From Megasphaera sp. NM10 (GTDB lineage Bacteria; Bacillota; Negativicutes; Veillonellales; Megasphaeraceae), in assembly GCF_000417505.1 (NCBI RefSeq), contig NZ_APHY01000022.1, forward strand, positions 62,034 through 126,033: DNA of 64,000 nucleotides, read 5' to 3'. Every line of letters starts with the position of its first letter. Position 1 is the first letter of the stretch. Positions 336-62,457 of the stretch are shown here, one piece after another. The notes under the pieces are model-generated. The model saw only the letters and a list, made by a program, of their open reading frames with translations. It ran no database searches and was not told the origin of the DNA. The translations under genes were made by a program, and so were the position numbers.

Positions 336-345
336 GGGACCTCCT

Positions 346-420
346 TTTTTCGTTCCTCGTAGGTCGTTCCTCGTAGGTCGAAAAAAAGCATCCCATCACG
401 ATGAACGACGAACGATGAAC
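346..420. repeat. Heptad-repeat inverted array (element 1)
   Basis: Left arm is CGTTCCT-CGTAGGT twice; after an A run and a short spacer the right arm is CGATGAA, CGACGAA, CGATGAA, CGATAAA. The reverse complement of the right arm runs in the same phase as the left, so the arms can pair. It sits between DUF1292 (with its terminator) and the LysR start. Same period-7 design as the elements near 6.5, 13.0, 19.0, 38.5, 50.3, 56.2, 60.8 and 62.3 kb. Confidence 0.75.
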
Positions 421-430
421 GATAAAGCAA

Positions 431-472
431 AAAGGCCTTGCATGATGGCCGAAACCTTCATGCAGGGCCCCT
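431..472 (-). terminator. Hairpin terminator after DUF1292
   Basis: Read on the minus strand, a stem built on GGCC, TGCATGA and GG pairs with CC, TCATGCA and GGCC, followed by a T run. It closes the alaS-ireB-ruvX-DUF1292 transcript. The stem core GCATGAAGG recurs in the hairpins near 19.1, 50.3 and 62.4 kb. Confidence 0.7.
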
Positions 473-476
473 TCAA

Positions 477-6467: not shown

Positions 6468-6504
6468 AAAAAAGGGGCTGTCCTTTGAAGACAGCCCCTT
6501 TTTA
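6468..6504 (-). terminator. Terminator after engB
   Basis: A perfect stem GGGGCTGTC / GACAGCCCC with a 7-base loop, flanked by A and T runs so that it could work both ways. It lies about 55 bp past the engB stop and before thioredoxin. It belongs to the repeated GCTGTC/GACAGC stem family of this window. Confidence 0.85.
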
Positions 6505-6554
6505 GGGGGTTAGCAGTTAGGGGTTCGTGGTTCGTGGCTAGCGGCTAACTGCTA
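6505..6554 (-). repeat. Stop-anchored heptad array (element 2)
   Basis: On the minus strand the engB stop TAG is the first unit of a period-7 array: TAG-CAGT, TAG-CCGC, TAG-CCAC, GAA-CCAC, GAA-CCCC, TAA-CTGC, TAA-CCCC. It fills the whole gap between the stop codon and the terminator stem. Confidence 0.8.
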
Positions 6555-12930: not shown

Positions 12931-12966
12931 GGTAAAGGCGCTGTCGCATAAAGACAGCGCCTTTTT
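12931..12966 (-). terminator. Terminator after pheT
   Basis: Stem GGCGCTGTC / GACAGCGCC with loop GCATAAA, followed on both sides by A/T runs. Almost identical in sequence to the terminators at 60.68 and 62.22 kb, which is unusual for unrelated genes. Confidence 0.85.
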
Positions 12967-13068
12967 GAGTTTGAAGTTTGTAGTTTTTAGTTTGCAGTGA
13001 AATGGTTAAAAATTAAAGGCCATCTTCTACAAACTACAAACTTTGTACTACAAACCAATCACTCCCTA
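12967..13068. repeat. Heptad inverted array (element 3)
   Basis: Left arm units AGTTTGA, AGTTTGT, AGTTTTT, AGTTTGC; centre GGTTAAAAATTAAAGGCC; right arm units TACAAAC, TACAAAC and variants. Read on the minus strand the array starts at the pheT stop: TAG-GGAG, TGA-TTGG, TTT-GTAG, TAC-AAAG, TTT-GTAG, TTT-GTAG. The right-hand hairpin of complete elements is missing here. Confidence 0.8.
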
Positions 13069-18943: not shown

Positions 18944-18980
18944 AAAAAAAGAGGCTGTCACATCAAGACAGCCTCTTTTA
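18944..18980. terminator. GCTGTC-family hairpin, bidirectional
   Basis: Stem GAGGCTGTC / GACAGCCTC with loop ACATCAA, flanked by an A run and a T run. It forms the left end of the composite heptad element that ends with the terminator of the RNA candidate at 19.1 kb. Confidence 0.8.
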
Positions 18981-19070
18981 AGGGGCTAGGGGCTAGGGGC
19001 TAGGGGCTAGGGGCTAGTGGTTAGCGGATGGTTTGAAATTTATGGCCATCTTCTATAAACTACAAACTAT
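18977..19070. repeat. Heptad array with five perfect GGGGCTA units (element 4)
   Basis: GGGGCTA repeats perfectly five times at 18982-19016, then GTGGTTA, a degenerate GATGG-AAATTT-CCATC palindrome and right-arm units such as TATAAAC, TACAAAC. Four or more GGGG runs with 3-base loops make an intramolecular G-quadruplex plausible on the plus strand. It lies between the promoter of the thioesterases and the structured RNA. Confidence 0.85.
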
Positions 19071-19333
19071 AAAGAAAAAGGGACTGCGCATGATGGCAGA
19101 ATCCTTCATACGACAGCCCCTTTCCCTGACATGCCTGACCTGGTCTTTACCCCCACACTCGCCTGCTGGGACGTTCGCTCATAGACTGCTGTCCCCCACT
19201 ACTAGCCCTCTCGCGGTATTTCCGCGGCAGGTCTTACTTCTAGGCCGCACTATGATCAGCACCGCTTTGGGTGCCTTACGTGGATCGCTTGGTCTGCGAC
19301 TGACATCGACTTTCAACCACAGCACATGTCATT
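19071..19333 (-). ncRNA. Structured small RNA candidate (6S RNA-like in size and layout)
   Basis: A perfect-looking promoter faces a ~208-nt region with no plausible protein, ending in a strong terminator. The RNA starts near 19333 with AAUGACAUGUGC; UGACAUG pairs with CAUGUCA at 19131-19137, closing a terminal helix, extended by UGGUU / GACCA. Inside are local hairpins GCACC / GGUGC, CGCGG-AAAUA-CCGCG and GGGAC / GUCCC. The terminator GGGGCTGTC...GCAGTCCC with a T run ends at 19071. Size, strong promoter and paired ends fit 6S RNA best. The tRNA-like ends of tmRNA, the SRP GGAAG motif and the RNase P core are not seen. Identity is a hypothesis; the existence of an RNA gene is well supported. 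Confidence 0.7.
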
Positions 19334-38427: not shown

Positions 38428-38612
38428 GGGGAGATTCGTGGTTCGTAGTTCGTAGTCCAAGTTAAAAGTTTGCAGTTTGAAGTTTGTAGTGAATAGTTTT
38501 AAATTTAAAGCCATCTTCTACAAACTCCGTACTACAAACTATAGAGAAAAGTAACTTCGCATAATGACAGGAACCTGAGTGCGTCTCCTCTGGCGGGCCG
38601 CCCTTTGGGCGG
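38428..38612. repeat. Heptad inverted array (element 5) and GGCCGCCC hairpin
   Basis: Left arm: GTTCGTA, GTTCGTA, then GTTTGCA, GTTTGAA, GTTTGTA; centre AGTTTTAAATTTAAAGCCATC; right arm TACAAAC, TACAAAC. A degenerate right hairpin (TTCGCATAATGACAGG) follows, then GGGCCGCCC-TTT-GGGCGGCCC at 38594-38615 just before the gluQ stop. Together with the mraZ promoter this explains the whole 308-bp gap. Confidence 0.75.
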
Positions 38613-50113: not shown

Positions 50114-50221
50114 GGAAGAACCCCTCCACCGCTTTGCGGTCCCCCTCCCCTTCGCAGGTGAGGCTTTCGGCTCCCCTGCGAAGGGGAGCTGGCGCCGCAG
50201 GCGTCTGAGGGGTTCTCTTCC
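50114..50221. repeat. Nested palindromic repeat, about 108 bp
   Basis: Outer arms GAACCCCTC (50118-50126) and GAGGGGTTC (50207-50215) enclose CCGCTTTGCGG, then CTCCCCTTCGCAGG / CCTGCGAAGGGGAG, and GCCGCAGGCG. The whole can fold into one branched structure. It follows the 76-residue protein and may act as its terminator. Elements of this CCCCTTCGCAGGGG style occur as dispersed repeats in other gut Firmicutes (recalled, not searched). Confidence 0.8.
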
Positions 50222-50225
50222 AAAA

Positions 50226-50374
50226 AAGGCTAGTGGTTAGCCGATGGTTTTAAATTTAAAGCCATCTTCTACAAACTATAAAGCAAATGGGACCTCGCAT
50301 GATGGCAAAAACCTTCGTGCGAGGTCCCATTTTTTATCCCTTACAACGACCAACGACCTACGATGAACGACGAG
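50226..50374. repeat. Heptad element with perfect central palindrome (element 6)
   Basis: A GGCTAGTGGTTAGCC hairpin, then the near-perfect palindrome GATGGTTTTAAATTTAAAGCCATC split at its AAATTT centre (50243-50266), TACAAACTATAAAG, a terminator at 50287-50330, and the heptads TTACAACGACCAACG-type up to the kinase stop. Read from the kinase: TAG-CTCG, TCG-TTCA, TCG-TAGG, TCG-TTGG, TCG-TTGT. Confidence 0.8.
50287..50330 (-). terminator. Terminator after the histidine kinase
   Basis: Perfect 13-bp stem ATGGGACCTCGCA / TGCGAGGTCCCAT; the 18-base inner part TGATGGC...CCTTCG can pair further. T runs or A runs on both sides. It shares the CGCATGATGGCAAAAACCTT core with the hairpins at 19.1 and 62.4 kb. 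Confidence 0.85.
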
Positions 50375-56155: not shown

Positions 56156-56192
56156 TAAAAAAGGCTTGTCGCACGACGACAAGCCTTTTTAA
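56156..56192. terminator. Terminator after the acyltransferase
   Basis: Stem AAGGCTTGTC / GACAAGCCTT with loop GCACGAC, A run before and T run after, starting ~10 bp past the stop. Related to the GCTGTC family. Confidence 0.85.
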
Positions 56193-56274
56193 GTTGTTAG
56201 TGGCTAGCAGTTAGTTGTTAGCGGATGGCTTTAAATTTAAAGGTTTTCTCTGAAAACTGCCAACTCCCACACTA
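56188..56274. repeat. Heptad element (element 7)
   Basis: Units GTTAGTG, GCTAGCA, GTTAGTT, GTTAGCG, then GGATGGCTTTAAATTTAAAGG and a degenerate right arm (ACTGCCAACTCCCAC) running to the stop codon TAG of the minus-strand secreted protein. Confidence 0.7.
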
Positions 56275-60671: not shown

Positions 60672-60673
60672 GA

Positions 60674-60706
60674 AAAAGGCGCTGTCCCATAAAGACAGCG
60701 CCTTTT
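60674..60706. terminator. Terminator after the acetolactate synthase gene
   Basis: Stem GGCGCTGTC / GACAGCGCC (60678-60702) with loop CCATAAA, A run before and T run after, 7 bp past the stop. Same stem as the terminators at 12.94 and 62.22 kb. Confidence 0.88.
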
Positions 60707-60917
60707 TAGTGGCTAGTGGCCCGTAGGGGCCGTCCTATCAAGGCGGCCCGCAAGCTAGTGGCTAGGGGTTAGTAGTTAGTGGCTAGGGGTTAGTAGTTAG
60801 TGGCTAGGGGCTCGCACGTGGCGAGCCGCCCAGAGTTCGGCGACAATGTTCCCGGCCTTCGCAGGGATCCGGCCCGCCTGGATATCGGGCGCCAAACTAC
60901 AAACTCCGTACTATAAA
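60707..60917. repeat. Heptad array with 21-bp super-repeat (element 8)
   Basis: Units TAGTGGC, TAGGGGT, TAGTAGT repeat as a 21-bp block (about 2.6 copies, 60755-60810). A GTAGGGGCCGTCC..GGCGGCCC fragment lies before it and a GGCTCGC-ACGTG-GCGAGCC hairpin after it (60809-60827). The right end reads back from the stop of the secreted protein: TAG-TTTA, TAG-TACG, GAG-TTTG, TAG-TTTG. No gene fits the 246 bp. Confidence 0.8.
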
Positions 60918-61595
60918 CTATTTCTTAGGCATCTTTTCTGCGTTTTTCAACATATCCGTGACGGCGCTGATGATGTCGTCATCGCCTTCTTTGGCGATGT
61001 TGCCCAGGATGGCGGCGACTTCCATCGTATCGCCGTGCTGCCAGGCCAGGCAGTGGATGGTTTCCGTGAAGGGATTGCCGTTGATGACCAGGGATTTGGC
61101 GATGGTCCATTCATAAAAGAGATGGCCATTGGTCTTTTTCGCCGTCACCGGCGAGACGACGTGGAAGCCCTCTGGAAGGCGTCCCGGCATATTCTGGTTC
61201 AGCCGGTTCATGAGGATGCGCATATCCGGCCGGCTGCCGATATCGCGGAGATAAGAGTTTTCCCGGTTCTCCCCATAGACGGCCGCCTTGACGTCCCAGA
61301 TGGTCGCCGTATAATGCAGTAGATAGGCATACTGGAAATCGGCATCGTCCTTCTTGACGACCTGATACGTTTCCGGCTGGATAGGAAAGATTCGTTCAAA
61401 CAGGGCGATGACATCGTTGCCTTCATCAGCAGCCGTCAGCATGGGCTGCCGCCCTGACTGCATGTAGATATCATCGGGGACCGTGATGACGCCCCAGTTG
61501 GGGAACTTCGACAGCGTCCCTTTATCCTTGGCCAGGGCAGCCGTCCCCATCGCCAAGACGGCGGCTGCCACCAGCACGATTGCTTTAATTTTCAT
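60918..61595 (-). CDS. Secreted protein of unknown function
   Basis: 225 residues. Signal peptide MKIKAIVLVAAAVLAMGTAALA, then a mature part with FPNWGVITVPDDIYMQSGRQP and HYTATIWDVKAAVYGENREN. The style is that of exported envelope proteins common in Negativicutes, but no known domain is recognised. The stop codon TAG is the first unit of heptad array 8. Upstream is its own region with no strong promoter match. Confidence 0.75.
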   Translation of the reverse strand: MKIKAIVLVAAAVLAMGTAALAKDKGTLSKFPNWGVITVPDDIYMQSGRQPMLTAADEGNDVIALFERIFPIQPETYQVVKKDDADFQYAYLLHYTATIWDVKAAVYGENRENSYLRDIGSRPDMRILMNRLNQNMPGRLPEGFHVVSPVTAKKTNGHLFYEWTIAKSLVINGNPFTETIHCLAWQHGDTMEVAAILGNIAKEGDDDIISAVTDMLKNAEKMPKK

Positions 61596-61755: not shown

Positions 61756-62159
61756 ATGGAATTCAACATCAAAGCCAACTCGACAGCAGAAGTTTCTGAA
61801 AAATGCACGGAAAACAATACGGCCATCAAATTGGGCAGCGGCAAATCCCCGGTCTACGCAACGCCGGCCCTGGTAGCTCTCATGGAAAACGCAGCCATCA
61901 ACGCCTGCGACCCTCAGCTCCCGGAAGGCTATAACACCGTCGGCATCGCATGAACGTCAAACACGTCGCCGCTACGCCTATCGGCCTGACCGTCACGGCC
62001 AAAGCCACCCTGATCGAACAGGACCGCAAAAAACTGACCTTCAAAATCGAAGCCCACGACGAAGCCGGCCTCGTAGGCGAAGCCACCCACGACCGCTTCA
62101 TCATCGAATCGGCACCGTTCCTCGCCAAAGCCGAAGCCAAAAAAGCTGCAGCAAAGTAG
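61756..62159 (+). CDS. FlK-like hotdog thioesterase, interrupted by a single-base frameshift
   Basis: Two frames join into a ~134-residue protein. The first (61756-61953) reads MEFNIKANSTAEVSEKCTENNTAIKLG...TPALVALMENAAINAC and stops just after GYNTVGI. The second (61950-62159) continues NVKHVAATPIGLTVTAKATLIEQD...GEATHDRFIIESAPF. This is the hotdog fold of the fluoroacetyl-CoA thioesterase family (LVALMENAA and VKHVAATPIG are its hallmarks). One missing C (GCATG for GCCATG at 61948-61950) explains the break, the same context as in alaS. Predicted acyl-CoA hydrolase. Stop codon TAG starts a heptad array. Confidence 0.88.
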
Positions 62160-62209
62160 TGGCTAGTAGGGGCCGTCCTGTCAAGGCGGCCTGCAAGCTC
62201 GTGGCTCGT

Positions 62210-62248
62210 AAAAAAAGGCGCTGTCGCATGAAGACAGCGCCTTTTTTG
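62210..62248 (+). terminator. Terminator after the FlK-like thioesterase
   Basis: Stem GGCGCTGTC / GACAGCGCC (62217-62241) with loop GCATGAA, A run before and T run after. It doubles as the left end of composite element 9. Confidence 0.85.
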
Positions 62249-62343
62249 AGTTTTAAGTTTGTAGTTTTTAGTTTGCAGCAAATGGTAAAAAATTTAAAAC
62301 CATCTTCTACAAACTACAAACTCCATACTACAAACTATAAAGT

Positions 62344-62397
62344 AAAAGGGGCCTCGCATGATGGCAAAAACCTTCATGCGACAGCCACTTTTTTTTA
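62344..62397 (-). terminator. Terminator after the biotin carrier gene
   Basis: Read on the minus strand: GTGGCTGTCGCATGAAGG...CCATCATGCGAGGCCCC, a bulged stem with a loop of TTTTTG. The run after it is only a short TTTTAC, so termination may be weak. It is the right end of composite element 9. Confidence 0.65.
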
Positions 62398-62457
62398 CGG
62401 CTTGCGGCCTGCGAACTGCGGCCTGCGGAACGCCCTTTGGGCGTCCCCTACGAGCCA

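Follow-up and report, generated by a model that had tools for sequence, protein, structure and literature searches.

A gene-free, IS1182-like miniature element that may replace terminators at gene ends in Megasphaera

The element at 62207-62399 of the window (the whole 64,000-nucleotide stretch of Megasphaera DNA analysed here) is best explained as an IS1182-family MITE, which would be moved in trans, bluntly replace the terminators at gene 3' ends and itself act as a terminator. Judging from sequence, we put the probability of this reading at about 0.8. The first-pass annotation had proposed a non-autonomous mobile unit turned into an intergenic insulator. The mobile unit gains support from an IS1182-family transposase in the same genome that appears to share the ends of the element, and from outgroup sites that are free of it. 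The conversion into an insulator does not hold, since autonomous IS1182 elements of the group already bear hairpins at their ends; the terminators would not be later additions, and it is pre-existing terminators that seem to have been replaced. The parts of the element are as follows.

62207..62399, + strand: whole element; T1 first in + orientation, with A- and T-tracts as flanks
62211..62247, no strand: left end hairpin T1; terminator-like in both directions, with 15 pairs around the loop GCATGAA
62248..62281, + strand: left heptad arm; TTTGTAG / TTTTTAG / TTTGCAG
62282..62303, no strand: core palindrome ATGG-TAAAAAATTTAAAA-CCAT; forms the loop of the long hairpin
62304..62343, + strand: right heptad arm; CTACAAA CTACAAA CTCCATA CTACAAA CTATAAAG, with the left arm as pairing partner
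62344..62395, no strand: right end hairpin T2; terminator-like for the - strand gene

A length of 193 bp and inverted ends differing by one extra A, as first annotated, are exact to the base. The left end reads CGTAAAAAAAG-GC-GCTGTCGCATGAAG from 62207, and the reverse complement of the right end reads CGTAAAAAAAAG-TG-GCTGTCGCATGAAG from 62399, one A more than the left. These terminal inverted repeats (TIRs), 27/28 nt in this copy, are conserved in an alignment of 36 copies spanning T1 to T2 (A1); the T1 hairpin holds the left TIR GGCGCTGTCGCATGAAG, and the reverse complement of T2 opens with the right TIR GTGGCTGTCGCATGAAG. Mirrored AGTTTGT/ACAAACT heptads around AAATTT are likewise present; the window has 16 ACAAACT where 4.5 are expected, a count reached by none of 100 shuffles. 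The predicted fold is three hairpins in a row, with T1 and T2 around the long heptad hairpin (core ATGG..AAATTT..CCAT), in agreement with the terminator-like ends that had been claimed; its z-scores are -8.5 (+ strand) and -11.0 (- strand), and no shuffle is equally good. Folding places a hairpin plus T-tract on each strand of the element ends. Folding was used to judge terminator-like structure in place of a terminator scanner; a simple scanner reported no terminators in the element region, probably since the T-tract here takes part in the stem pairing. An Rfam search near the element matched only raiA and assigned the element to no known RNA family. The reverse of TTTGATGTTTGATG, a control column of the heptad count, equals the TTTGTAG heptad type, which we treat as coincidence.

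The window holds further copies and hairpins of the same family, listed here together with the raiA RNA that one of them meets.

343..473, + strand: divergent copy; heptads of the TCGTTCC type, T2 present; its counterpart in the sister genome G002 is a full TAG-type copy
6468..6528, + strand: solo T1 hairpin with heptads
12934..13057, + strand: partial copy; T1, arms and core present, T2 missing
18945..19126, + strand: second full-length copy; TAGGGGC heptads in the left arm, T2 abutting the raiA 3' end
19126-19332, - strand: raiA RNA (Rfam RF03072, 191 bits); its 3' end meets T2 of the 18.95-kb copy
38462..38588, + strand: partial copy without T1, T2 decayed; absent at the same place in G002
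50229..50332, + strand: partial copy without T1; the G002 copy at the same place lies in opposite orientation
56157..56267, + strand: copy of the TAGTTGT/TAGTGGC heptad type; the G002 counterpart is of the TTTGATG type
60672..60712, + strand: solo T1 hairpin, with an arm remnant at 60893-60921

The first-pass annotation had already placed a related copy at 18.95-19.13 kb, here found to be full length, and partial copies, here located at 12.93-13.06 kb (without the right hairpin), 38.46-38.59 and 50.23-50.33 kb (both without the left) and 0.35-0.47 kb (other heptad type, with the right hairpin); absent from it were the copy at 56.16-56.27 kb and two left hairpins that stand alone, at 6.47 and 60.67 kb. 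The abutment of T2 on the raiA 3' end is what would be expected if T2 replaced the raiA terminator.

A genome-wide profile search for complete copies, proposed at the first pass and made here with a sequence-only model built from the copies, yields at least 150 for the host, a Megasphaera genome, with 62207-62399 as the top-scoring one (R1, 158.8 bits, E 7e-47), and at least 151 in G002, the nearest sister genome. Elsewhere in the genus the same model finds 12 copies in G004, 1 in G010 and none in 11 other genomes; at a stricter cut-off it finds none in two further family members. Among named organisms, Megasphaera sp. MJR8396C, sp. UBA1696 and M. massiliensis come closest in a neighbouring gene (90-92% amino-acid identity); for that gene G002, a single contig of 2,478,942 bp that is probably M. 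elsdenii, has 93% nucleotide identity to the host. Heptad types vary by species. TTTGATG-type matches number 125 in G002, 57 in G004 and 12 in the host, and GTAGTTT-type matches 122 in the host and 46 in G002, in counts that allow up to one mismatch and count tandem matches repeatedly.

Immobile ordinary terminators that grew similar through local compensatory evolution and slippage would be a very improbable source of such a family. The T1 stem does covary, with compensatory changes at 6 of 9 pairs among the 36 aligned copies, and the host differs from G002 by one compensated pair at 6.45 kb and by a 14-bp indel, two heptads, at 60.7 kb. Yet about 180 nt in fixed order are common to at least 150 unlinked places, and the outgroup lacks the element.

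The element has no transposase gene, and its likely autonomous partner, to judge by sequence, is an IS1182-family transposase in the host genome. PF13751 transposases number two in the host, both at contig ends, and three in G002; within the genus, long open frames of this kind occur in these two genomes only, G001 and G008 having short stretches and other congeners none. Both of those tested exceed the NCBIfam IS1182 equivalog cut-off, the host protein with 278.6 bits against 270 (NF033551). The right end of the IS1182 on host contig C24 (L214), GGGGCTGTCGCATTAAG...CTTTGTGCGACAGC, forms a hairpin of -30 kcal/mol; this end, which follows the gene, reads inward as GGGGCTGTCGCATTAAGCC...GTGCGACAGC, and it has GGGGCTGTCGCA and the hairpin form in common with the element. 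A transposase sharing the ends, which the first pass had suggested seeking, is thus matched at the right end; the left end is lost to the edge of C24 and the TIR pair is not visible whole. We predict for the left end of the complete IS a T1-like hairpin with GG..CTGTCGCA. Related ISs are present in 57 of 380 genomes of the class (Negativicutes), with ends GGGGCTGT[C/T]GCA that were derived from two-copy comparisons and TIR searches in other genomes; most, not all, of these ends fold into strong hairpins. The alignment score of T2 is 14 to the L214 end and up to 16 to other IS ends, against 3.5 +/- 1.6 (maximum 12) in a shuffle control. Ends of the CTGT[C/T]GCA type also occur in some IS5 elements of P. 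gingivalis (PMC4596501), and the TIR word is not specific to IS1182.

Other transposases of the host were considered as well. The only other DDE transposase genes found there, of the IS5/IS4 type (PF01609), are without such ends, and no IS6-type (PF13610) gene was found in the genome. The element is palindromic and intergenic and the genome has three Y1_Tnp genes, as if a Y1 (RAYT/IS200) transposase mobilised it as a REP/BIME-like repeat; we regard this as scarcely credible, because two of the three Y1 genes adjoin a TnpB-like gene, as in IS200/IS605, and the element ends match IS1182 instead. Reading the sequence around the three Y1_Tnp genes by eye, we saw no element copies. Unrelated to the element are the host loci L095 (C37) and L096 (C89), IS200/IS605-like transposons in which a Y1 transposase is accompanied by a TnpB-like gene.

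We propose that both element ends are IS1182-type terminal repeats, each inside a terminator hairpin, around a gene-free interior palindrome built of heptads, and we infer that a transposase, for which the IS1182 gene on C24 is the candidate, moves this unit in trans. Insertion would be blunt, with the rho-independent terminator hairpins that close genes at their 3' ends as targets; by this model of the exact cut and its chemistry the top of the target hairpin would be lost, and the A- and T-tracts of the target would remain as flanks. Because the MITE ends are terminators, presumably also active in cells, the host gene would still be terminated and the inserted MITE would be the next target, the contents of kept sites being replaced, nested or inverted.

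The target sites are consistent with such a model. All three IS1182 copies of G002, nearly identical to one another, lie exactly in the T1 position with element arms directly beside them, and at one of these sites G002 has AAAA-[IS]-TTTT where the host keeps T1 (AAAAAGGCGCTGTCTTATGACAGCGCCTTT). Clean absences of the element come from an M. massiliensis-like outgroup (G006), 15-25% diverged, which has a simple hairpin at all nine window element sites; for eight of these the fold beats at least 199 of 200 shuffles and for the ninth (38.4 kb) 191, and 140 kb of this genome hold no family match. The 62207-62399 site is itself a plain terminator in the M. massiliensis group. The empty sites envisaged at the first pass thus exist, as plain terminators in M. 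massiliensis-like genomes and at 38.4 kb in G002. Among 32 well-bounded full copies, an A-tract and a T-tract flank 24, a second element arm lies within 75 nt downstream of seven (1.15% of control windows), and none has a target duplication (TSD) of 4-9 nt. The duplications that the first pass had also thought worth seeking are therefore missing, as expected for IS1272-type insertion. Neighbour genes, whose orientations come from a simple codon-score gene-calling script, are convergent at 36, tandem at 73 and divergent at 1 of the 110 copies with both neighbours called, against 14, 72 and 15 for comparison gaps of at least 100 bp in two 140-kb regions. In tandem contexts the hairpin that faces the gene end is T2 in 57 cases and T1 in 16 (p = 1.5e-6).

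A precedent exists in IS1272, an IS1182-family element for which Furi et al. described blunt insertion into terminator hairpins that partly deletes the target, without target duplication and with repeated insertion, in both orientations, at one terminator (PMC4923244). This behaviour matches the target, flanks, absent TSDs, inverted orientation and recurrent site use seen here; the absence of a TSD is not defining for an IS1182-family MITE, since IS1272 makes none. These traits and the transposase family are common to IS1272 / TnSha1 of staphylococci and the Megasphaera element, but the former are autonomous or gene-carrying and have few copies (PMC4923244), whereas the latter would be a 180-nt derivative that holds no gene, has at least 150 copies and offers its ends as the next targets.

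Host and G002 are colinear over 65 kb, mostly at 89-93% identity, with the larger interruptions coinciding with element sites. Nearly all element sites are occupied in both genomes, with unlike contents, and strict two-sided empty sites are few, most sites being occupied in G002. The copies are thus not strictly vertical with their flanking genes: positions are mostly common to the sister species and contents have been replaced, which may be because an inserted MITE terminates the gene and becomes a target in its turn. Both arms have changed heptad type at 12.9 kb, at 56.2 kb and in the pairs L043/L166 and L062/L232; the 50.2-kb copy is inverted in G002; T1 was gained or lost at 18.9 and 0.4 kb. 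In G002 synteny is interrupted at the 62207-62399 site; one side carries a simple hairpin, and a T1-arm remnant lies at a distance of 50 kb. Between L040 of the host and L226 of G002, with 97% flank identity, the change lies mostly in T1, on both stem sides. The T1 hairpin of this pair looks swapped as a unit, the remaining element being nearly identical. Identity of orthologous copies is 0.70 against 0.61 for random pairs, with n = 7 too small to weigh alone.

Such patterns could also arise if copies no longer transpose and dispersed copies exchange their contents at fixed sites by gene conversion, the hairpins and core serving as homology, an explanation that we hold possible but doubtful. 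It would suit the occupation of nearly the same sites in host and G002, the 18.9-kb copy, where T2 is kept and the remainder differs, and the T1 difference between L040 and L226. However, the nested full copies behind a T-tract, the inverted 50.2-kb copy and the IS that stands where T1 belongs represent insertions, and the first spread is left unexplained. With insertion by an IS1182-family transposase as the preferred reading, gene conversion may add to the turnover, and the both-arm heptad switches and the T1 replacement in L040/L226 may need it as well. It is tempting to go further and, because the terminator and both heptad arms at fixed gene ends are rewritten jointly from one sister species to the other (TTTGTAG to TTTGATG; T1 stems swapped, on both strands), to postulate a dedicated process, beyond chance insertion, that exchanges palindromic cassettes in place. 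We consider this unlikely; if true, the terminators of these genomes would be in constant turnover.

A role of T1 and T2 as holders of a DNA uptake signal, like the paired uptake sequences of Neisseria terminators, is the least probable reading. The word GTCGCATGA does recur in terminator loops, but the loops vary among copies and TCGCATGA is at chance level, with 5 in the window against 3.4 expected.

The pneumococcal repeats BOX, RUP and SPRITE have other sequences and other hosts than the Megasphaera element. They resemble it as small, intergenic, modular repeats with mutual insertion, SPRITE being terminator-like, and differ from it in that both of its ends are terminator-like and match IS1182 ends (PMC3049150, PMC10969869). 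The BrickBuilt MITE of Porphyromonas gingivalis is also intergenic; its tandem repeats form a long stem-loop, and some copies are flanked by rho-independent terminators; unlike the present element it has IS5-type ends, 23-nt repeats, variable TSDs and 19 copies, and its own ends are not described as terminators (PMC4596501). TAACTGA heptamer arrays of Beggiatoaceae and cyanobacteria share the 7-nt units between genes, but consist of one word in direct repetition close to start codons (PMC4679880), whereas the Megasphaera heptads form two complementary arms near gene ends, of species-dependent types. MITEs, repeats that resemble terminators (SPRITE) and IS1182 elements that seek out hairpins have all been described (PMC10969869, PMC3049150, PMC4923244). 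By title and abstract in a partial open-access literature, we found neither IS1182-derived MITEs acting as terminators nor such repeats in Megasphaera.

The element suggests a way for a small transposon to multiply to at least 150 copies, about 1% of the genome, at little cost to the host: because it lands in terminators and is a terminator, the control of read-through need not break. Terminators would then be a replaceable, selfishly occupied part of Megasphaera gene architecture. With their shared sites and differing contents, the two sister species allow a direct test of terminator turnover, and the same pair also tests the hairpin-targeting mechanism proposed for IS1272.

Some minor observations concern the surroundings of the element and the heptads themselves. 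At 61756-62159 (+ strand) a thioesterase-like gene is broken into two overlapping frames of 66 and 70 aa, in a stretch whose length in M. massiliensis differs by one base; it is a pseudogene or an assembly error. Other intergenic hairpin repeats lie at 50117-50216, 60714-60763, 62157-62206 and many host loci (for example GTAGGGGCCGTCC..GGCGGCCCGC and CCTCTCAGTCAGCTNCGCTGACAGCTCTCC); they often adjoin the element and are possibly other miniature elements. Long direct arrays of TTTGATG heptads in G002 (C1:728759-728828 and 974196-974279) suggest slippage within the arms.
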